DNA of 40,189 nt. It comes from Anaerolineae bacterium (GTDB taxonomy: Bacteria; Chloroflexota; Anaerolineae; 4572-78; J111). The stretch spans positions 1-40,189 of the forward strand of contig JAFGDY010000145.1 of the NCBI GenBank assembly GCA_016931895.1, given 5' to 3'. Within the stretch, counting starts at the first letter, position 1, and each line of letters opens with the position of its first letter. Position numbers and translations under genes: made by a program. The notes under the pieces were generated by a model. The model was not told the DNA's origin and ran no database searches. It worked only from the letters and a program-made list of their open reading frames with translations. Below are positions 19,120 to 31,790 of this stretch, one piece after another.

Positions 19120-19719
19120 CTATTTCCCCAAATCCCGACTGGCTTTTTGAATAGCCTTAATCATAAGCCGGTGTTCGGTGGCGTGGACTCTGGCGGCGTA
19201 GGTTTCCAGGGTATCATCCGGCAGAATGGACACCGGCGCCTGGCTGATTACTGCCCCCCGATCCACTGCGGGGATGACGTAATGTACCATGCAGCCGCCG
19301 CGTTCAATTTCTCCCTTTTGATAGGCGGCAAAAGCCCATTCAATGCCCCCTACCCCCACAAACGTGTTGGGAAGAGCAGGGTGCAGATTAATGACCCGGT
19401 TGGGAAAATGGTCTAAAAAAGCCGGGCTGAAAATGTGCATCCACCCGGCCAGCACAATCAAATCGGGGTGGTAGGAGCTGACCAACCTGGCCAGATCGGC
19501 GTCGTACTCTGCTCTACTTTTTCCGGCCTCACGATAGGGTTTGAAGGGAAAGTAGAGCGTGGGCATGCCCGCTTTTTGGGCGCGGGTCAGGCCGTAAGCG
19601 TTTTTGCGGTTTGACACTACTAATACCACTTTGGCCTTTAACTTGCCTTCAACCGAGGCGTCTAAAATAGCCTGTAAATTGGAACCGGAGCCGGAGATAA
19701 AAACGGCAAGTTTTTTCAC
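19120..19719 (-). CDS. purN: Phosphoribosylglycinamide formyltransferase
   Basis: A 199-residue enzyme that transfers the formyl group of 10-formyl-tetrahydrofolate to GAR, step three of purine synthesis. It shows the phosphate loop SGSGSNLQAI near the N-terminus, the catalytic segment NLHPALPNTF (Asn and His), GCMVHYVIPAVDRGAVI with the conserved Asp, and normal family length. Start GTG at 19719 with AAAGGA ten bases upstream. It is the last gene of the minus-strand purine operon and converges on the methyltransferase gene across about 15 bases; no clear terminator is seen between them. Confidence 0.93.
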   Translation of the reverse strand: MKKLAVFISGSGSNLQAILDASVEGKLKAKVVLVVSNRKNAYGLTRAQKAGMPTLYFPFKPYREAGKSRAEYDADLARLVSSYHPDLIVLAGWMHIFSPAFLDHFPNRVINLHPALPNTFVGVGGIEWAFAAYQKGEIERGGCMVHYVIPAVDRGAVISQAPVSILPDDTLETYAARVHATEHRLMIKAIQKASRDLGK

Positions 19720-19734
19720 TACTGCTTTGTCCTT

Positions 19735-20493
19735 TCATTTTTTTCTATCGTCCATACCATTACAAAGAAGCCATAAACTGCCGAATTTATTCTGTTGTTC
19801 TTGTCTTGTTTTCAAAAGGCCTAACAAAAGGGGAAGTTGGCCCACGTTTTCGAGAAATTCATAAACCGCGTATCCCCTGAAAGCATCTTTTGGCGTTACG
19901 CCGGACAAAACAGCCACAAACGGAATCGCGGCTCGCGCGGCGGTTTCCGCATCCGTAATACTGTCGCCAACGTAAAGCGAGTCTGCCGGAGCACAGCCCA
20001 GCTTATCCAACGCCATTTGCAGACCTTCAGGGTTGGGCTTGTGGTTGGCTACGTCTTCACCGCCAATGATTACATCAAATGAATCGGCCAAACCTTCACG
20101 CGCCAAAACAGTTTTGATGCGACGCCGGAACTTGGTAGAAACAATGCTTAATTTGAGGCCGCGTTTTTTGAGGGCAGTAACGGTAGGGGGCACTGTCGAA
20201 AAAAGAGCTGTCAAATCCGCCATTACTTCATCGGCTTGTTGCAAAAATAAACGCACAAAGGTGTTGCTTTGGGCAACGTCGTTTTGGCCGGTCAATATTT
20301 GAAACGTATCCGGCAAAGATAAGCCGATGGTCCGGCAGGCCCGCTCCTCAGAAACTTCCGGTAATCCCAGGTTAGTGAGGGCGAAGTTAATACATTCCAC
20401 CACTCCCTGGCTGGAGTCCGCCAGGGTGTAGTCAAAATCAAAAAGAATGGCTTCAGGTAATTGTTTTATAAAAAACTCAAGGTTTTCACTCAT
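19735..20493 (-). CDS. HAD-superfamily phosphatase (Gph-like) in the purine operon
   Basis: A 252-residue HAD hydrolase. Motif I is DFDYTLADS (nucleophile Asp 19), motif II is SIVSTKFRRRI, motif III Lys in ANHKPNPEG and motif IV VGDSITDAETA. A four-helix cap domain lies between motifs I and II, as in phosphoglycolate and nucleotide phosphatases. Its ATG overlaps the purM stop (ATGA), so it is translationally coupled to purM and followed by purN. This suggests a role linked to purine metabolism, for example removing a toxic or surplus phosphorylated intermediate or a nucleotide, but the substrate is unknown. The 30 residues after motif IV (LLKTRQEQQNKFGSLWLLCN) are unusual for the family. Confidence 0.85.
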   Translation of the reverse strand: MSENLEFFIKQLPEAILFDFDYTLADSSQGVVECINFALTNLGLPEVSEERACRTIGLSLPDTFQILTGQNDVAQSNTFVRLFLQQADEVMADLTALFSTVPPTVTALKKRGLKLSIVSTKFRRRIKTVLAREGLADSFDVIIGGEDVANHKPNPEGLQMALDKLGCAPADSLYVGDSITDAETAARAAIPFVAVLSGVTPKDAFRGYAVYEFLENVGQLPLLLGLLKTRQEQQNKFGSLWLLCNGMDDRKK

Positions 20494-21506
20494 TGGATGA
20501 TGATTTCTGTTTTGCCTCCAACAATTTTACCGACGACGTACAATTCGGGCAGCGCCGCTTGCGCCGCTGCCACTTCCTCTGGCGACACCACTACCAGCAT
20601 GCCCAGACCCATATTGAAAACGTGAAACATCTCCTCCGGGAGAATGTTGCCTTCATTTTGAATTAAGCCAAAGATGGGTGGTTCCGGCCAAACGCCGCGC
20701 TTAATAACCGCGCCCACGCCCTTAGGCAGAATGCGAGGCAGGTTATCCACAATACCCCCGCCGGTGATGTGAGCCAATCCTCGGATTTCCACGCCGACCC
20801 TCCACAACTGTTGTATTGGCGGCAAGTAGGAGCGATGTACCTCTAACAGCGCTTCTCCAATTGAACACCCTAATGCTGGATGCCTGGTTTGCCAATCAAA
20901 CTTGGCTAAAACCTGGCGGGCCAGGGAATAGCCGTTGGTGTGTAGGCCGGTTGACGGGAGACCCAAAATCACATCGCCCGCTTCAATTTTTGCCCCATCA
21001 ATGATTTTTTCCCGTTCCACCACGCCAATCACCGTGCCCACCAGGTCAAACTCGCCTGGCCGGTAAACGCCGGGCATTTCGGCGGTTTCGCCGCCCAAGA
21101 GCGCGCAGCCCGCTTGTTGGCAGGCCATGGCCACGCCATGCACCAGCATGGCCGTTTCGGCCGGGTCCAATTGGGCCGAAGCTACGTAGTCAAGAAAAAA
21201 CAGCGGCTGCGCGCCCTGCACCAAAATGTCGTTAACACAGTGATTGACAATGTCCTGCCCCACCGTGTCCCAGCGTTTCAACCGCGAGGCCACTTTGGTT
21301 TTGGTTCCCACCCCGTCGGTGGATGCCACCAGCACCGGCGACTGCATCCCCTGCAACCGGCTCGCCGCGTACAGGCCGCCAAACGCGCCCAGCCCGGCCA
21401 GCACTTCCGGCCCGTAGGTAGCCCGCACCGATTCCTTCATCAATTCCATGGCCCGCTGCCCGGCTTTAATATCCACCCCGGCTTGAGCGTAAGCGCTTTT
21501 TTTCAT
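20490..21506 (-). CDS. purM: Phosphoribosylformylglycinamidine cyclo-ligase (AIR synthetase)
   Basis: A 338-residue ATP-dependent cyclase converting FGAM to AIR, step five of purine synthesis. It has the typical N-terminus (YAQAGVDIKAGQRAMELMK), the ATP loop VASTDGVGTKTKVA, DIVNHCVNDILVQGAQPLFFLDY, GGETAEMPG, and HITGGGIVDNLPR near the C-domain start; normal length for the family. ATG at 21506 with an AGGGG-type ribosome site. Between this gene and purD lies a 60-base tract of degenerate GACCAACGAC repeats, so the operon is not tightly spaced here. Confidence 0.95.
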   Translation of the reverse strand: MKKSAYAQAGVDIKAGQRAMELMKESVRATYGPEVLAGLGAFGGLYAASRLQGMQSPVLVASTDGVGTKTKVASRLKRWDTVGQDIVNHCVNDILVQGAQPLFFLDYVASAQLDPAETAMLVHGVAMACQQAGCALLGGETAEMPGVYRPGEFDLVGTVIGVVEREKIIDGAKIEAGDVILGLPSTGLHTNGYSLARQVLAKFDWQTRHPALGCSIGEALLEVHRSYLPPIQQLWRVGVEIRGLAHITGGGIVDNLPRILPKGVGAVIKRGVWPEPPIFGLIQNEGNILPEEMFHVFNMGLGMLVVVSPEEVAAAQAALPELYVVGKIVGGKTEIIIQ

Positions 21507-21545
21507 CGTCTAACTATCCCCTGTTTCGTTTGACCAACAACCGAT

Positions 21546-21598
21546 GACCAACGACGAACGACCAATGACCAAATTTCGTCGTTGGTCGTTGGTCGTTT
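21546..21598. repeat. GACCAACGAC-type inverted/tandem repeat between purD and purM
   Basis: The word GACCAACGAC (21546-21555) and degenerate copies are followed by the complementary words GTCGTTGGTC (21578-21587) and a second overlapping copy. The tract can fold into a hairpin in the purD-purM message. It looks like a dispersed extragenic repeat, not coding sequence. Confidence 0.7.
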
Positions 21599-21603
21599 AT
21601 TGA

Positions 21604-22920
21604 TCATTGCCGGTGATTGAGGCCAATGTCCCGCCGAAAGTGAGCGCCCTCAAAATCAATCCGGGCGATGCCGGCGTAGGCCCGGTTCAGGGCCGTTGTT
21701 AAATTGTCCCCCACCGCGCTGACCGCCAGCACCCGCCCGCCGGACGTCACAACGCCGTCTGAGGTTTGGACCGTGCCCGCGTGAAACACTACTGTGTTTT
21801 CCAGGGCGGCGGCCCAATCTAACCCCCTGATCGGCAGATTCCGGGGATAACTACCCGGATACCCCGGCGAGGCCATCACCAGCGTGGCGCACGCGCCGGG
21901 CCGCCAGCGGACTTCAACCTGGTCCAGGCGTCCCTCAATGCACGCTTGCGAGATTTCAAACAGGTCGGTTTCCAGGAGAGGCAAAACGGCCTGGGTTTCG
22001 GGATCGCCGTAGCGGCAGTTGAATTCTAAAACTTTGGGGCCGTCGTCGGTTAACATTAGCCCGGCGTACAGCACGCCCATGTAGGGGCAGCCACGCTCGG
22101 CCATGCCGGTGACGGTTGGCTGCAAGATGGTTTGGCACACCGTCTCAATAAATTGGGGCGTTATGTCTGGAGCGGGCGCATAAGTCCCCATCCCGCCGGT
22201 GTTAGGCCCCTGGTCGTTGTCAAAAACCCGTTTGTGGTCGCGGGCGGGGATGAGGGGGACAATGGTATAACCATCGCTCCAGGCCAGAATAGAGATTTCC
22301 GGCCCATTGAGCCGTTCTTCAATGACCACTTTGTCGCCGGATTTACCAAAGGCTCGCTCAACCATTACTTTGTGCAGGGCGGCTTGCGCCTCGGCGATGG
22401 TGTCGCAAATCAGCACTCCTTTGCCGGCGGCCAGGCCATTGGCTTTAACCACCACCTGATACTCCACCTGCTGCAAATAGTCGCGGGCGGCCTGATAATT
22501 GTCAAAAATGGCGTAGTCGCCGGTGGGGATGTGGCGCTGGCGCATAAAGTCTTTGGCAAACGCCTTAAAGGCTTCCAGTTGAGCCGCCTCGTGGGTTGGC
22601 CCAAAAATGGCCAGGCCCGAGGCATGGAAGATGTCCACAATACCCGCGGCCAGCGCCGCTTCCGGCCCCACTACGGTCAGGTCAATTTCTTTGCGCCGGG
22701 CAAAGGCCACCAGAGCCGGCAGGTCGCCCACCTCAATGGGAACGTTTTCCGCGGCAGCGCGGGGTTGCAGGCCGGTAGCTGATGGATTAGCGGGCCAGGT
22801 TGTGCCGGCGTTGCCGGGGGCCACGTAAACCTGCTTCACCTGAGGGGATCGGGCCAAAGCCCAGGCCAGCGTGTGTTCTCGACCGCCTGAGCCAACGACC
22901 AGCACAGTTTTTTGGGCCAT
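21604..22920 (-). CDS. purD: Phosphoribosylamine-glycine ligase (GAR synthetase)
   Basis: A 438-residue ATP-grasp ligase joining phosphoribosylamine and glycine, step two of purine synthesis. Motifs are VVGSGGREHTLAWAL, VVGPEAALAAGI, an ATP-grasp lid KANGLAAGKGVLIC, PNTGGMGTYAP and the metal-binding EFNCRYGDPETQAV. The ATG at 22920 is preferred over GTG 22926 because the AGGAG ribosome site overlaps the latter. Length and motifs are normal. It follows purE at 19 bases. Confidence 0.95.
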   Translation of the reverse strand: MAQKTVLVVGSGGREHTLAWALARSPQVKQVYVAPGNAGTTWPANPSATGLQPRAAAENVPIEVGDLPALVAFARRKEIDLTVVGPEAALAAGIVDIFHASGLAIFGPTHEAAQLEAFKAFAKDFMRQRHIPTGDYAIFDNYQAARDYLQQVEYQVVVKANGLAAGKGVLICDTIAEAQAALHKVMVERAFGKSGDKVVIEERLNGPEISILAWSDGYTIVPLIPARDHKRVFDNDQGPNTGGMGTYAPAPDITPQFIETVCQTILQPTVTGMAERGCPYMGVLYAGLMLTDDGPKVLEFNCRYGDPETQAVLPLLETDLFEISQACIEGRLDQVEVRWRPGACATLVMASPGYPGSYPRNLPIRGLDWAAALENTVVFHAGTVQTSDGVVTSGGRVLAVSAVGDNLTTALNRAYAGIARIDFEGAHFRRDIGLNHRQ

Positions 22921-22939
22921 ACTCACTCCTTTCTTTGCC

Positions 22940-23428
22940 TTACAAATTTAAATTTGCCGCTTTAACCTTATCGGCCATGGTTTGGGCGTAGGCGACAAGT
23001 CGCCCTGTTAAATCTGGATGTTTTATGGCCAAAATTCGGGCCGCCAGTAATCCGGCGTTTTTGGCCCCGTCAATACCAACGGTGGCCACGGGGATGCCGC
23101 TGGGCATTTGCACAATAGAGAGCAGGGAGTCCAACCCCTGTAAGACCGGAGACCTGACCGGCACGCCAATCACCGGCAGCGTGGTCAGGCTGGCCATCAC
23201 TCCGGGCAGGTGGGCGGCTCCGCCCGCGCCGCCAATGAGCACTTCAATGCCCCGCTGGGGGGCGGAGCCGACATACGCCTGCACCAGGTCCGGCGTGCGG
23301 TGCGCCGAAGCGATTTTCATCTCATTGGCCACCCCCAGCGAGTCCAAAATTTCCGCAGCCCCTCTCATTACCTCCAAATCCGAGGCGCTGCCCATCACAA
23401 TGCCTACCAGCGGTTTATCAACCATCAT
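22940..23428 (-). CDS. purE: 5-(carboxyamino)imidazole ribonucleotide mutase
   Basis: A 162-residue class-I-like PurE that moves the carboxyl group from N5-CAIR to CAIR. It has [19 protein letters not shown] (catalytic His) and the glycine-rich [15 protein letters not shown], as in octameric bacterial enzymes. PurK, which supplies N5-CAIR, is not encoded in this window; it may lie elsewhere. The start is a double ATG (23428 or 23425). It lies between purF and purD; a repeat tract of about 50 bases separates it from purF. Confidence 0.93.
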
Positions 23429-23520
23429 TTGTTATTATCCTTGTCAGCTAGAGCGTGTTGATATTTCGGGTTCGGAATGACACATTTGAACAAATATCAA
23501 CAGCACCAATTGTTGCCAAA

Positions 23521-23570
23521 ATCAATCATTCACAATTAATCATTCACCATTCACCATTCACAATTAATCA
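23521..23570. repeat. ATTCACAATTAATC-type short tandem repeat at the purF stop
   Basis: Heptamer-like words CATTCAC, ACAATTAATC and CATTCACC are repeated over 50 bases between purF and purE. The last bases (TCA, 23568-23570) supply the purF stop codon. The same words occur inside the purL coding region (27331-27380), in the opposite orientation relative to the operon. Confidence 0.7.
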
Positions 23571-25055
23571 GCCCCACATCTCCTCAAACATCAACTTCTC
23601 CCGGTTTTCGTCAAACAGCCATTCGGGAATGGGCAGGGGATAATCGCCGGAGAAGCAGGCGGCGCAGTGGCCGGTTTGTGCGGCGGGTAAGGCTTCTCGG
23701 ACGGCGGCGGTCATGCCGGCCAGGCTTAGATAAGCCAGGGAGTCGGCCCCAATCCGCTGCCGGATACCTTCAATATCCAGCTTGTGGCCGATGAGTTGGG
23801 AGTAGGTGGCCATGTCCACCCCCATAAAGCAGGGATGGCGCACCGGCGGCGACGAGACCCGCACGTGCACTTCTGCCGCCCCACCTTCGCGCATAAGCTG
23901 GACCATTGGCCCGGCCGTGTTGCCCCGCACAATCGAGTCGTCAACCAGCACCACCCGTTTGCCCTTTAAGTTGCCGGTTAATGGATTGTACTTGAGATGA
24001 ACGCCGATTTGCCGCAGCGTATCATCCGGCTCAATAAAGGTGCGGCCAATGTAGCGATTTTTGGTGAGACCCTCGGTGTAGGGCAAGCCGGACTCCAGGC
24101 TGTAGCCAATGGCCGCGGGTGTGGCCGAGTCGGGCACGCCCACCACAATGTCGGCTTCGGCGGGCGCTTCGCGGGCCAGTTGCGCGCCCAAACGCTGGCG
24201 GACCGTGTGAATGACCTGGCCTTCCAGAATGGAGTCGGGCCGGGCAAAGTAGACGTATTCAAAAATGCACAGGGCGCGTTTGGCCGGCTCGCGGCCTGTA
24301 AAAGAAGTGGCGCCCCGGCTGTCCAGGCGTAAAATCTCGCCCGGTTTGACTTCGCGCAAGTATTTTGCGCCAATGGTCAGTAGAGCGCAAGATTCCGAGG
24401 CGACGACGTGACCGCCGCCGGGCAGTTGGCCCAGGCACAGGGGCCGCAAGCCGTAAGGGTCGCGGATGGCATAAACAGCGTCCCGGGTTAAAATGACCAG
24501 CGAATAGGCGCCTTCGGCCACTTCCAGCAAAACTTGCAGCCGGGCTACCCACTGGTCGGCGTCGGTTGAAGTTTTGCCGTTTTCCCCGGTCCAGGCTTGC
24601 ACGGGGGCGGCCAGCGTTTGGGTGATCACTTCGCTATCGGTGGTGGACGACAGCCCTACGCCCCGCGCCAGTAGCGACCGCCGGAGTTGCCGGGCGTTGG
24701 TCAGGTTGCCGTTATGGGCCACCCCCAACGGCCCGTGAATGGTCTCGATCAGGTAAGGCTGGACATTCCGCAGGTGCGAGGCGCCGGTGGTGGAGTAGCG
24801 GGTGTGGCCGATGGCCAGGTGCCCTTGCAGAGGCCGCAGGTTGTCTTCATTGAATACCTGGGCCACCAGGCCCATGCCTTTGTGGCTGTAGGCCGCCCGT
24901 CCGTCGGTGGTGGCGATGCCGGCGCTTTCTTGCCCCCGGTGTTGCAGGGCGTAGAGGCCAAAAAAAGTCAGGCGGGCCACATCGCGGCCGGGAGCGTAGA
25001 GGCCAAACACGCCGCACGCTTCGCGGGGACCTTCTTGAAGCCAGTTTTCACACAT
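23568..25055 (-). CDS. purF: Amidophosphoribosyltransferase (Fe-S, Bacillus type)
   Basis: A 495-residue enzyme making phosphoribosylamine from PRPP and glutamine, the committed step. The catalytic Cys14 lies in EACGVFG after a 13-residue propeptide that would be cleaved. The glutaminase domain has ALQHRGQESAG, GHTRYSTTG and GVAHNGNL. The PRPP loop is VVLVDDSIVRGNTAG. Cysteines expected to hold a 4Fe-4S cluster are present in LCIFEYVYFARPDS, HPCFMGVDM and HCAACFSGDYP. The ATG at 25055 is preferred over GTG 25058 because AGAAGG lies at a suitable distance. The stop codon is built by a repeat tract. Confidence 0.95.
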   Translation of the reverse strand: MCENWLQEGPREACGVFGLYAPGRDVARLTFFGLYALQHRGQESAGIATTDGRAAYSHKGMGLVAQVFNEDNLRPLQGHLAIGHTRYSTTGASHLRNVQPYLIETIHGPLGVAHNGNLTNARQLRRSLLARGVGLSSTTDSEVITQTLAAPVQAWTGENGKTSTDADQWVARLQVLLEVAEGAYSLVILTRDAVYAIRDPYGLRPLCLGQLPGGGHVVASESCALLTIGAKYLREVKPGEILRLDSRGATSFTGREPAKRALCIFEYVYFARPDSILEGQVIHTVRQRLGAQLAREAPAEADIVVGVPDSATPAAIGYSLESGLPYTEGLTKNRYIGRTFIEPDDTLRQIGVHLKYNPLTGNLKGKRVVLVDDSIVRGNTAGPMVQLMREGGAAEVHVRVSSPPVRHPCFMGVDMATYSQLIGHKLDIEGIRQRIGADSLAYLSLAGMTAAVREALPAAQTGHCAACFSGDYPLPIPEWLFDENREKLMFEEMWG

Positions 25056-25080
25056 CACAACCTTCTTTCTGTTTTTTCAA

Positions 25081-26037
25081 TCAACGAGAACGCAGCGTTT
25101 TAAGGTTACGGGCAATGCGTTCTACCGCAGGCTCTTCACCGGGGATAAATTCCTGGCCGGTGAGTTGCTCAAAGGCATTGAGGTACAGTGTGGCCATGTG
25201 GGCGATAAAATCGTTGGGCATGGTGGGCGCTTCGCTCTCGCCCCGGTAGCCTTGATCAACAAACCATTGCCGCAGCACTTCTTTGTCAAACTTTTCCGGT
25301 TCCTGGCCGGGTTGGTAGGAGTCCAATACCCAAAAACGGCTGGAGTCGGGCGTGTGAAATTCGTCAATCAGGGTCAGTTTGCCGTTAACCAGGCCAAACT
25401 CGTATTTGGTGTCAACCAGGATCAAGCCGGCTTTTTCGGCCACTTGTTGGCCCCGGTCAAACAGGGCCAGGGCCACTTCTTCTACTTTTTCCCAGAGCGG
25501 CGGGGCCACCAGGCCCTGGCCGATGATCTCGTCGCGGGTCAGCTGCTCATCGTGGCCGCCGTATTCGGCTTTGGTGGTGGGCGTGATGATGGGGTGGGGC
25601 AATTGATCGTTTTTTTGGAGACCATTGGGCAGGGGGATGCCGTAGGGCCGGCGGTCGCCTTGGGCGTACAGCGTCCACAGGGAAGTTTTGCTAACGCCGG
25701 TAATGTAGCCCCGCACCACCACTTCCACCGGCAACGGCGCGGCGTTTTGGGCAATCGTGACGTTGGGGTCGGGCACGTCCAGCACGTGGTTGTTGACAAT
25801 GTCCCGGGTTTGGGCAAACCACCAGGCGCTAAGTTGATTGAGCACCTGCCCCTTGAAAGGGATAAAACCCAGCACCCGGTCAAAGGCCGAAACCCGGTCG
25901 GTGGTGATGAGGATGCGTTTGCCCTGGTAAGCGTAACTATCGCGCACTTTGCCCGGCTGTTTGGGTCCAAAAGCGGGCAGGTCAACGGTTTTAATTACGT
26001 TTGGAATAGCTTGAATTAAATCTTGATGCGTGAACAT
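25081..26037 (-). CDS. purC: SAICAR synthetase
   Basis: A 318-residue ligase adding aspartate to CAIR. It shows GKVRDSYAYQGKRILITTDRVSAFD (split over residues 29-53), VVRGYITGVS, TPTTKAEYGGHDEQL, and LVDTKYEFGLVNGKLTLIDEFHTPDSSRFW. It is the long form (about 300 residues), resembling yeast Ade1, rather than the 237-residue Escherichia coli form. AAAGG lies upstream of the ATG. It sits between purL (46 bases) and purF (25 bases) in the operon. Confidence 0.95.
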   Translation of the reverse strand: MFTHQDLIQAIPNVIKTVDLPAFGPKQPGKVRDSYAYQGKRILITTDRVSAFDRVLGFIPFKGQVLNQLSAWWFAQTRDIVNNHVLDVPDPNVTIAQNAAPLPVEVVVRGYITGVSKTSLWTLYAQGDRRPYGIPLPNGLQKNDQLPHPIITPTTKAEYGGHDEQLTRDEIIGQGLVAPPLWEKVEEVALALFDRGQQVAEKAGLILVDTKYEFGLVNGKLTLIDEFHTPDSSRFWVLDSYQPGQEPEKFDKEVLRQWFVDQGYRGESEAPTMPNDFIAHMATLYLNAFEQLTGQEFIPGEEPAVERIARNLKTLRSR

Positions 26038-29000: not shown

Positions 29001-29965
29001 ATGCCGGCATTGTCTACAAAGGCCGAGCGCACCCAGGGCTTATTGACCTTTTCCGTGGCGGCCTGCAGATAGGTTTTGAGCAGGCCGTTGATGGTTTGTT
29101 TGACCGGCGTGCTGTCGGGCGCTGCGCCGGGGGCGGGGCCGGTATAGCAGATGGTGGCCCTGAAGCTTTTGTGCACACAATGTTCGCTCCAGGTTTGGGC
29201 CAGCATTTCCAGTTCCACATCGGTAGGGTCGCGGCCTTCAAGGCGATAGTAAGTTTGGAGGGCCCGCATTTCAGCCGGATTCAGGGCTAGCCGGCGTTCG
29301 GCGCTGAGGGCGGCCAGTTCGTCCTCATTGGCTTCGCGTAGAGAAATAATTTCTACCGTATCATCAATTTGCTGATAAGGCACAAGAGGCGGCGTGATCG
29401 TGTGGTTGATGGCGACTTGCTGAATGACGGGATTAGAGAAAACTTCAACCGACAGGCGCTGTAAATCTTTTTTAGTTAGCGAGCCGGTCAAGGTATAGCG
29501 GTACCCGGTGGCAGCTTGAGTCAGTCCGGTTAATCCCAGCAAATGGGCGGCGCGAACCAGGTTTTCGGCGGCGGGGTCGGTGACGCCAGGGAGCAGGGTG
29601 ACTTCGATGGTAGGTGAAACAGGGTAGCAGGGTAGCAGGGTAGCAACTGGTCCATCTGCTACCCTGCTACCTGCTACCTTGTTACCTGTTACCTCAAAAC
29701 TTTCCGTTACCGGGTCGGCCAGTAATTCGGCGGCCAGCCGGTTGGCATCAGCCAAACTAAGTTGGCCCCGTAAAAAGAAGAGGCGGCCAACCTGGCAGGT
29801 ATCGAGTGAGTTGATACCTAGCTGATGGGCCGCCTTGACCAATGCGCTGCCGTGCGCCTGTGTTTCCGTGGGGCGGTGAGACACCTGAACCCGGAATACC
29901 TGTTCCTCCATTGGTTTAGGGAGGGGGGCAGGAAGGGATGTGTCTCCCGGCGAAATAGTACCCAT
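26084..29965 (-). CDS. purL: FGAM synthase, fused PurS-like/PurL/PurQ chain with in-frame repeats
   Basis: A 1293-residue fusion that converts FGAR to FGAM with glutamine. Residues 22-90 and 118-190 are two PurS-like halves. The PurL part spans about 200-1020 (EMLAQTWSEHCVHKSF, KLETHNHPSA, GGVVRDVLGV, DCGAGGLSSAVGE, CSEGGLAVALAEM). The C-terminal PurQ glutaminase has nucleophile C1131 in GICNGFQVL and H1260/E1262 in PHPEDH. The ATG at 29965 is preceded by GAAGGA. Two stretches are odd: residues 91-118 come from a GGTAGCAG hairpin repeat, and residues 862-879 from an ATTCAC repeat of the kind also found between genes. Both keep the frame and lie in linkers. It is the first gene of the purine operon after the leader. 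Confidence 0.93.
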   Translation of the reverse strand: MGTISPGDTSLPAPLPKPMEEQVFRVQVSHRPTETQAHGSALVKAAHQLGINSLDTCQVGRLFFLRGQLSLADANRLAAELLADPVTESFEVTGNKVAGSRVADGPVATLLPCYPVSPTIEVTLLPGVTDPAAENLVRAAHLLGLTGLTQAATGYRYTLTGSLTKKDLQRLSVEVFSNPVIQQVAINHTITPPLVPYQQIDDTVEIISLREANEDELAALSAERRLALNPAEMRALQTYYRLEGRDPTDVELEMLAQTWSEHCVHKSFRATICYTGPAPGAAPDSTPVKQTINGLLKTYLQAATEKVNKPWVRSAFVDNAGIIKFDDTWDLAFKLETHNHPSALEPFGGANTGVGGVVRDVLGVSARPIANTNVLCFGPPNLPENQLPGGMLHPRRIADGVVHGIEDYGNKMGIPTVNGAILYHPGYTANPLVFCGCLGLLPHGSHPTQAQPGDLIVIIGGRTGRDGLRGATFSSMEMDQTTGQIAGSAVQIGHPINEKKVQEVVLRAREKKLYHAITDCGAGGLSSAVGEMAEELGADVQLQTVPLKYPGLRPWEIWLSEAQERMVLAVPATNWPRLQEICAGQDVAVICIGKFEATGRVRLHYGQRLVGDLDLDFLHNGLPLGQLVAAWKPPATSQPAANKVEKTDINLANVLLKLLAHPNIRSKESVIRRYDHEVQGGTAIKPLVGVDNHGPGDATVLIPFDTQPVIRPVSPAQRALALSVGICPAYSDLDPYAMAWAAIDEAMRNLVAVGADPDQVALLDNFCWGNPNLPDRLGSLVRCAQGCYDAAVAYNTPFISGKDSLNNEYTGADGQKHAIPGTLLISALGIVPDVTQTVTMDLKQPDNYLYLVGETRAELGGSHYQLIIHNSQFTITHSSPPQPVPNALNYLRALHQVMVKGLAQSCHDCSEGGLAVALAEMCLAGRLGAKIELSQVPGAANMATDDQILFAETSCRFVVEVRPADAAAFEKLLGDTPHARFGRVGGDELQINGLNKQPVIAVPVAGLEKAWRGHVGPVAPSKTSVPEKPASILPPPQPPKVFILHANGTNRDREAALACQLAGAAPEIVHVNQLLAGERHLLDYHMLVIPGGFSYGDDLGAGVLWALDLRRRLGDQVSRFVDSGRPVLGICNGFQVLVKAGLLPGIETVSNHERTVTLAPNHSARFECCWVYLQPNPHSPCLFTQGLTEPIYCPVAHGEGRLAVAGDEVLQTLRANNLNALTYVNADGSPADYPLNPNGSTAGIAGLCNPAGNVLGLMPHPEDHVFPWQHPRWRRGESGWNGLRLFQNGIKRA
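27331..27380. repeat. GTGAATT tandem repeat inside purL
   Basis: Three GTGAATT-type heptamers plus flanking GATTAATTGATAATGG lie inside purL. On the coding strand they give HYQLIIHNSQFTITHSS. The words match the intergenic tract at 23521-23570, so a normally non-coding repeat is translated here. Confidence 0.75.
29621..29692. repeat. GGTAGCAG palindromic repeat inside purL
   Basis: GGTAGCAGGGTAGCA (29631-29645) pairs perfectly with 29657-29671 across an 11-base loop. The stem extends by seven more pairs (29623-29629 with 29672-29678) after one bulged base. It encodes residues 91-118 of PurL between its two PurS-like halves. Related words occur between oppB and oppA. Confidence 0.8.
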
Positions 29966-30192
29966 TTTTTCTTTCCTTCAATGATGCGGCAATATTTTTC
30001 CTCAATCCAAAAGCAAACTCCCGCCATCGCGTGGTAGCGGGAGTTTCACCCGGCAGCAGATATGCCGGTATCAGTCTCTCAGTTTTGAGTGTGGCAACAG
30101 TGCTAATGCCTCTATTGGTTTGGGAAGGCATTGAGAACTTCTTAGGCATAAGTTCAAGTTTTTTGGTTAAGCTGCTGAAATCTAACGCCCTC
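29966..30192 (-). promoter_or_regulatory. Structured 5' leader of the purine operon with terminator-like hairpin
   Basis: About 220 transcribed bases precede purL. In order on the minus strand: GAACTT/AAGTTC, then AATGCCT/AGGCATT (with a competing ATGCCT copy just upstream), CTCA/TGAG, CCGGCA/TGCCGG, and AAACTCCCGC (30037-30046) paired with GCGGGAGTTT (30015-30024), followed by GCTTTT. The last hairpin looks like an intrinsic terminator about 50 bases before the purL ATG. The competing pairings suggest attenuation or a riboswitch controlling purine genes. No known riboswitch consensus was recognised. No protein gene is seen in it. Confidence 0.55.
30015..30046 (-). terminator. Intrinsic terminator-like hairpin in the purL leader
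   Basis: Ten-base perfect arms AAACTCCCGC and GCGGGAGTTT with a 12-base loop, followed on the minus strand by GCTTTT. It lies downstream of the purL promoter, so it would act as an attenuator; it may also stop read-through from guaB. Confidence 0.6.
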
Positions 30193-30221
30193 ATTCTATG
30201 CAAAAGCAAGCGGAATGTCAA
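30193..30221 (-). promoter_or_regulatory. Consensus sigma-70 promoter of the purine operon
   Basis: Minus-strand TTGACA (30216-30221), a 17-base spacer, and TAGAAT (30193-30198). The -35 box lies 17 bases beyond the guaB stop. The expected start is near 30186. A perfect -35 and optimal spacing make this the strongest promoter seen in the window. Confidence 0.75.
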
Positions 30222-30238: not shown

Positions 30239-31717
30239 TTATTTGCGAGGGCTATAATTTGGCGCTTCTTTGGTCAGCACCACACTGTGCGGATGACTTT
30301 CCAACAGGCCGGCATTGCTGATAGGCACAAACTTGGCCTTGGCCTGCAATTTGTCCAGAGAGGCCGCGCCCACGTAACCCATGCCGGAGCGAATCCCGCC
30401 GACAAATTGAAACACAAAGTCAGCCAGTTTGCCTTTGTAGGGCACGCGCCCTTCCACGCCTTCGGGCACGGTTTTGCCGCTATCCGACGTTTGGCCGCTG
30501 CCGTAGCGGTCTTTGCTGAATTGACTCATGGCGCCCAAACTGCCCATCCCCCGATAGTCTTTATAGGGCCGGCCTTCGGAGACAATGATCTCGCCGGGCG
30601 ACTCCTCCACCCCGGCCAACATGCTGCCCAGCATCACCGCGGCTGCGCCTCCGGCCAGGGCTTTCACCGCGTCGCCGGAGTATTTGATGCCGCCGTCGGC
30701 GATGATGGGAATATTGTATTCTCGCGCCGTTTTGGCGCACTCCATAATCGCCGTCAGTTGCGGCATGCCTACCCCGGCCACCACGCGAGTGGTGCAGATT
30801 GACCCGGCTCCCACCCCAACTTTGACGGCTTCAGCCCCGGCCTCAATCAGGGCGCGAGTGCCTGCGGCGGTGGCCACGTTGCCGCCAATCACCGGCAGGT
30901 GAGGGTAGCTGGAGCGGATCCAGTCAATGGCGGCCAGCACTTTTTTGGAGTGGCCGTGGGCCGTGTCTACGGCAATCACATCTACCTGGGCCTCAACCAA
31001 GGCTGCCAGGCGCTCCTGGTAATCGTGGCCTACACCAAGCCCGGCCCCCACCCGCAACCGGCCCTGCTCGTCAACGGCGGCCAGGGGATAGTCGCGTTTT
31101 TTGCTGATGTCCTTTACCGTGATCAGCCCTTTGAGATAACCGTTTTTATCAACCAGGGGCAGCTTTTCAATTTTGTGCTGTTGCAAAATGCGTTTGGCTT
31201 CTTCCAGGGTGGTGCCGATGGACGCCGTAACCAGGCTTTGGCTGGTCATATATTTTTCAATGGGGTCGTCCCAATTTTCGGTAAAACGAATGTCCCGGTT
31301 GGTCAAAATACCCACCAACAAGCCTTCTTTTTCGGGCGAGGTGATGGGGATGCCGGAGATATGGTAACGGGCCATCAACGCTTCGGCTTCGGCCAGGGTA
31401 TTGTGGGGATGCAGGGTGATGGGGTTGGTGATCATGCCGGCCTCGGAGCGTTTCACCCGGTCCACGTGGGCGGACTGGTCGGCAATGGGCATGTTGCGGT
31501 GAATGATGCCCAGCCCTCCCTCGCGGGCCAGGGCAATGGCCAGCCGGGCCTCGCTAACCGTGTCCATGGCCGCCGACACCAGGGGAATGTTGAGCCGGAT
31601 GTCCCGCACCAGGCGGGTTTGCAGGTTGACTTCTCCCGGCAGCACTTCGGAATAGCCGGGCAGCAACAGCACGTCGTCAAAGGTATAGGCCTGGGCTTGA
31701 AAAGAGTTCTCGGTCAT
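30239..31717 (-). CDS. guaB: IMP dehydrogenase
   Basis: A 492-residue enzyme oxidising IMP to XMP with NAD, the first committed step to GMP. It has [15 protein letters not shown] near the N-terminus, two CBS domains (about 95-205, bearing [10 protein letters not shown] and [10 protein letters not shown]), the active-site loop [15 protein letters not shown] with C308, [10 protein letters not shown], and the flap [10 protein letters not shown] with RYGSG. The ATG at 31717 is chosen because AGGAG precedes it closely and the family N-terminus follows; the in-frame TTG at 31762 has no support. It lies upstream of the purine operon on the same strand, and a separate promoter follows its stop. Confidence 0.95.
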
Positions 31718-31761
31718 TTTCTTCTCCTGTTTGTCAAGTGTTTCTGTGGAAATTTTGGGCA

Positions 31762-31790
31762 ATTTTACATTGCTTGGGTTTTTGAGTCGA
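31762..31790 (-). promoter_or_regulatory. Candidate guaB promoter
   Basis: Minus-strand TCGACT (31785-31790), a 17-base spacer and TAAAAT (31762-31767), about 45 bases upstream of the guaB ATG. Four of six -35 bases match the consensus. Confidence 0.45.

Follow-up and report, generated by a model that had tools for sequence, protein, structure and literature searches.

The window, by which we mean the whole 40,189-nucleotide stretch of Anaerolineae DNA analysed here, carries on its minus strand a purine synthesis operon, purL-C-F-E-D-M-(HAD)-N, of which purL is the first gene and which lies downstream of guaB (Table 1). The purL ATG codon is preceded at 9 nt by an AAGGA motif. Between two PurS-like parts of the fused protein, the purL frame includes a repeat of the GTAGCAGG/CCTGCTACC type (29680-29620), and in G004, a genome of the same family, the matching position of purL is occupied by another repeat, GGGGAGCA; this linker seems to take up repeat elements.

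Table 1. Features of the purL leader and of the surrounding operon (positions in the window).
Feature	Position	Strand	Basis
guaB (IMP dehydrogenase), upstream neighbor of the purL leader	30239..31762	-	
Sigma-70-type promoter, TTGACA-N17-TAGAAT	30193..30221	-	consensus and conservation
Untranslated leader; contains an A6 tract and, directly 5' of the leader ATG, the conserved TTGAACT	30150..30186	-	sequence and alignment
Leader ORF, 77 codons (MPKKFSMPSQTNRGISTVATLKTERLIPAYLLPGETPATTRWREFAFGL...), crossing the terminator, with its end 50 nt into purL	29916..30149	-	open frame in three genomes
AATGCC.../...GGCATT stem-loop (alternative pairing region of the initial annotation)	30104..30132	-	folding; not conserved
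CCGGCA/TGCCGG stem-loop directly 5' of the terminator	30050..30068	-	folding; not conserved
Intrinsic terminator (attenuator) hairpin, AAACTCCCGCTACCACGCGATGGCGGGAGTTT	30015..30046	-	consensus, folding, three-genome alignment
Downstream part of the interrupted U-tract, GCTTTTGGAT, after the TTT of the stem	30005..30014	-	consensus; conservation
purL, fused PurS-like/PurL/PurQ formylglycinamidine ribonucleotide synthase, 1293 aa	26084..29965	-	gene annotation
Rest of the purine operon, downstream of purL	19120..26037	-	
purC	25081-26037	-	
purF	23568-25058	-	
purE	22940-23428	-	
purD	21604-22926	-	
purM	20490-21506	-	
HAD hydrolase	19735-20493	-	
Formyltransferase (purN-like)	19120-19719	-	

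The promoter is followed by a leader of 140-180 nt with the terminator hairpin, and then by purL. An initial annotation of this DNA had described a TTGACA/TAGAAT promoter with perfect spacing, and a strong hairpin with a T tail some 50 bases before purL. Both are present. The promoter, whose -35 hexamer lies 18 nt from the end of guaB, matches the consensus at 11 of 12 positions, and the transcription start is predicted near 30186. The hairpin is made of the stem arms AAACTCCCGC and GCGGGAGTTT separated by TACCACGCGATG, and its 3' end is 49 nt from the purL ATG (29965). As bare matches, neither the promoter consensus (1 seen, 0.9 expected) nor the terminator pattern (2 seen, 2.5 expected) occurs above chance in the counts, and it is their conservation in two relatives of the window's genome, G001 (same genus) and G004 (same family), that lifts them above it. 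In both, a promoter, an ATG and a near-identical hairpin with its tail are found at the same site before purL. The promoter is identical to that of the window at 26 of 29 positions in G001 and at 18 of 29 in G004. Within it, TTTGCATASAATGAGG is conserved in the three genomes; ACTCCCGC and TGGCGGGAGTTTGCTTTT of the hairpin are invariant, and the TTTGCTTTT tail is kept in all of them. The leader ATG is located 39-47 nt downstream of the -10 hexamer in each, and the A6 tract is common to the leaders of the window and G001. The leader in the version seen in the window was found in these three genomes only. Each of them has a single copy of the strict hairpin pattern, which is missing from the 58 other genomes of the class that were searched. 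Control of purL by termination is well supported.

The initial annotation saw the layout of an attenuator, which is supported, and missed a reading frame that runs open through the terminator. The matching frame is open through the hairpin and beyond the purL start in both relatives, with 83 aa in G001 and 72 aa in G004, so that as in pyrBI a leader ORF, here a predicted one, crosses the terminator hairpin in all three genomes. Dinucleotide shuffling leaves the frame open about 5% of the time for each genome, which would amount to 1.6e-4 for three independent genomes, and these are not independent. The amino acid change score between the window and G001 was +0.47 in the leader frame versus -1.11 and -0.51 in the other frames, and between the window and G004 it was +0.03 versus -1.07 and -1.10. 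The leader frame contains no stop codon, compared with 3 to 7 in the other frames, and its indels between the window and G001 are of 9 and 3 nt. The differences between these two leaders are spread over all three codon positions (22/24/30). No Shine-Dalgarno sequence was found upstream of the leader ATG at 30149, and the hexamer coding score of the ORF is negative, which indicates that it is not an ordinary gene. The most conserved block of the peptide, TPA...WREFAF, is encoded by the hairpin sequence, which dictates it, so that it cannot count as separate support for coding. The peptide is under weak selection; the frame looks to be maintained, and the peptide itself looks unimportant.

Terminators upstream of purL are a recurrent feature of the class. 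They were detected on the sense strand at 29 of 71 loci and on the antisense strand at 6 of 71, and in a second set of 37 loci, partly overlapping the first, the numbers were 23 and 8; some of those on the sense strand may in fact terminate the preceding gene. Other families have purL genes with attenuators of their own, of the type AACTCYC...GRGAGTTTTTT, and in one of them (f37) several genera harbor AACTCCC or AACTCTC purL attenuators with the layout seen in the window. There, the leader ORFs often begin 5-8 nt after a -10-like hexamer, which is the expected transcription start, and encode peptides such as MMKSINR... and MMKTINR... (G404-G406), MMDG[ST]TRKCLKT... (G387 and G357), MGS[IN]ILIP..., MDRRNKLF... 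and MAKRHNC.... Every first-ATG ORF of the f37 purL leaders ends between 18 nt upstream of the hairpin and beyond it. In a blind count, ORFs qualified as leaderless leader ORFs if they started 4-8 nt downstream of a -10-like hexamer and extended to the hairpin. They were found at 9 of 38 purL terminators and at 6 of 131 background terminators (p = 0.001), a value that is indicative only, given that the background is a sample of one genome, that of the window, from a family other than f37, and that some of the purL loci are close relatives. In the whole-genome survey, 1.29 Mb were covered for the window's genome and 0.4 Mb for G406. For one leader taken alone an ORF that extends to the hairpin is not rare, as shuffled single leaders reach the hairpin in 16-70% of cases. 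The attenuators of the window's family and of f37 may not be homologous, the ORF of the window not being leaderless and those of f37 being so. At another purL locus (L123), the region about 240-40 nt before the purL match holds a promoter, a terminator and what is left of guaB, a truncated start of about 40 codons and then a stop. The leader ORF of this locus crosses the terminator and shares its frame with the remnant of guaB.

In Escherichia coli, pyrBI has its own promoter, a leader of about 150 nt and an intrinsic terminator inside the pyrL ORF shortly before the first gene, and the coupling of transcription and translation is set by UTP-dependent pausing of the polymerase. The window likewise has a nucleotide synthesis operon with a promoter, a leader and a terminator within a leader ORF. 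It differs from pyrBI in that the operon is for purines, that there is no U-rich pause tract or recognizable NTP-specific pause site, that the ORF overlaps the purL start by 50 nt, and by its phylum. No pyrB attenuator was seen in the window's genome, where pyrB directly follows a phosphoribosyltransferase-like gene. In Salmonella, the mgtCBR leader contains the short mgtM ORF, whose peptide is not conserved, and an A-rich stretch, and the polymerase was proposed to pause at low ATP (PMC3641672). A short ORF with an unconserved, seemingly unimportant peptide and an A-rich stretch are also present in the window. Unlike mgtM, which has alternative stem-loops and responds to high ATP, the window has no conserved alternative stem-loop, and a role of its A tract is hypothetical.

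We propose, with a probability of about one half, that the purL leader is a transcription attenuator controlled through the coupling of transcription with translation of the leader ORF, in the manner of E. coli pyrBI or Salmonella mgtM. We infer that the leader frame is translated and that its translation prevents termination. RNA polymerase would start near 30186, a ribosome would initiate at the ATG about 38 nt downstream, and the polymerase would reach the terminator about 140 nt into the transcript. With a ribosome close behind the polymerase, the hairpin sequence inside the ORF would be covered, no hairpin would form and purL-C-F-E-D-M-N would be transcribed. If translation is late or has not started, the hairpin would form and the transcript would end ahead of purL. 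Control would thus lie in how closely translation keeps up with transcription, which could be set for instance by polymerase pausing at scarce purine nucleotides. In E. coli, an intrinsic terminator is repressed when a ribosome occupies a stop codon no more than about 27 nt away (PMC4824070), and the observed leader ORFs end within this range or beyond.

The explanation that comes closest, which we nonetheless regard as unlikely, is that a protein or a general elongation factor, such as an RNA-binding repressor or antiterminator or a factor of the NusG/LoaP type, acts on the conserved hairpin and that the open frame is incidental. What is kept in the three genomes is the sequence of the hairpin and not merely its stability. 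The ACTCYC/GRGAGT stem is found in 16 of 38 purL terminators and in none of the 131 terminators of the genome sample, and some related leaders offer no ATG leader ORF: none precedes the hairpin at L251 and L249, and only a GTG start does at L250. However, the same stem is present elsewhere in the class in ordinary and T-box-like terminators (77 of 396 genomes) and is thus not necessarily a binding site. In addition, all three close leaders have the frame open, and in the other family the hairpin is reached by leaderless ORFs. We had considered the ACTCYC/GRGAGT hairpin as an element specific to purL and rejected it, since this stem belongs to many other terminators, including the T-box-like AACTCTCGTCCC...GGGATGAGAG. 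As it is also found in unrelated terminators across the class, we make no claim of hairpin homology between families. AACTCTCGTCCC...GGATGAGAGTTTTTT hairpins with the look of T-box terminators were seen in many genomes (e.g., G017:C296:1982-2013 and G013:C105:14492-14523), and in G406 (C2, near 35811) the thrS leader shows GGGTGGAATCGCG before its terminator.

The hairpin might also be a plain terminator between guaB and purL, with a separate promoter and no regulation. Neighbors on one strand often have a terminator between them, as seen in 36 of the 367 long gaps of this kind in the genome sample, and read-through of a terminator can be constitutive. Against this, the promoter lies upstream of the terminator, so that its purL transcripts must cross it, and the two are conserved jointly, remaining together even in G004, where the gap between guaB and purL is longer. 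This makes an unregulated terminator improbable.

The initial annotation had left the choice between a riboswitch and an attenuator. The attenuator is favored by the conserved promoter and terminator and by the recurrence in the class, and the checks made with Rfam and on leader structure went against the riboswitch. A riboswitch of an unknown class, with an upstream aptamer that binds a purine-related ligand and switches the hairpin, would be compatible with the leader length, the terminator, the gene context and the stability of the predicted fold (-52.9 kcal/mol versus -41.2 for dinucleotide shuffles, z = -2.87). However, an Rfam search of the window and 15 related loci gave no match at the gathering score; the initial annotation had recognized no known purine, PRPP, T-box or folate riboswitch consensus. 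At E values up to 10, the best match was rnk_leader, with 23.4 bits for a cut-off of 50 (E = 0.09). A DNA similarity search of phage records gave no match. The alternative ATGCCT/AGGCAT pairings described in the initial annotation are possible in the window (ATGCCT at 30149 and 30131, AGGCAT at 30111) but absent from both G001 and G004. Consensus folding of the three-species alignment returned the terminator as the only conserved helix and thus no aptamer, and the stretch from the ATG to the hairpin, where an aptamer would lie, is 52% identical to the window in G001 and 41% in G004. In related leaders the distance from the -10 hexamer to the hairpin ranges from 51 to 167 nt, which argues against a common aptamer and leaves a room of about 45-160 nt. 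The lack of an Rfam match and of conservation of the ATGCCT/AGGCAT pairing leaves the riboswitch unsupported, and we consider it highly improbable. The purine, PRPP (ykkC) and T-box leaders share with the window a control by premature termination of purine or tRNA-related genes, and differ from it in that the window has no Rfam match and no T-box sequence, GGGUGGNACC, before its hairpin. Premature termination is thus favored over a riboswitch by the conservation of the promoter, the ATG and the hairpin with its tail, by the terminator being the sole consensus helix, and by the absence of an Rfam match.

Attenuation specific for an amino acid, as in the trp, leu and his operons, would also combine a leader ORF with a terminator, the ribosome stalling at particular codons. 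LLLLRT leader ORFs are present in three genomes of another genus, and a Met-rich leader ORF precedes metG in the window's genome. Yet no amino acid is enriched across the purL leaders, the ORF of the window has no codon run for a single amino acid and crosses the terminator instead of stopping before the hairpin, and consensus folding revealed no conserved antiterminator pairing, all of which leaves this explanation a very slight chance. The metG case itself (methionyl-tRNA synthetase gene, L183:11493-13088, minus strand, contig C38 of G000) comprises a promoter, a Met-rich leader ORF, MLNVLSVIFLMSMGMRMRGLPRFILPMLAAARKS (C38:13171-13272), and a strong terminator upstream of the gene. The peptide is 68% identical in G001, and no Rfam match was found at this leader, which looks like a leader-peptide attenuator for MetRS. 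The Met-rich ORF, its terminator and its conservation in G001 indicate that the window's genome probably uses leader ORF attenuation. By eye only, we also saw in this genome an FMN riboswitch look-alike before a transporter gene (L167:10879-11721, minus strand) and a TPP riboswitch look-alike before the thiamine pyrophosphokinase gene (L156:4180-4839, minus strand). Finally, the promoter and terminator could serve a separate small RNA or small protein unrelated to purL, as between them they would yield a transcript of about 180 nt. This is equally hard to credit, since the element is single copy and always directly upstream of purL in three genomes and its sequence is little conserved outside the promoter and hairpin.

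As to what an attenuator run by leader translation would sense, the purL leaders are A-rich and G-poor (0.31 and 0.19, compared with 0.23 and 0.28 locally), with no specific tract common to all, and we recognized no NTP-specific pause site in the leader. We considered this purine content as a sign of ATP or GTP sensing and set it aside, as it may merely reflect non-coding DNA. That the A-rich leader and its A6 tract would allow ATP sensing is a weak suggestion. It is doubtful, if conceivable, that the Anaerolineae have in the purL operon a purine counterpart of pyrBI attenuation. Polymerase speed would then report on purine nucleotides, and a ribosome that covers the terminator would read it out on a leader ORF, leaderless in one family and internally initiated here. 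Our literature search found no account of leader ORF attenuation of a purine operon, and the regulation of purine synthesis in Chloroflexota appears undescribed in the literature searched. Should leader translation indeed control the terminator, the coupling of transcription and translation would serve as a sensor in purine as well as in pyrimidine synthesis, and leaderless leader ORFs would be an unusual trait of one family.
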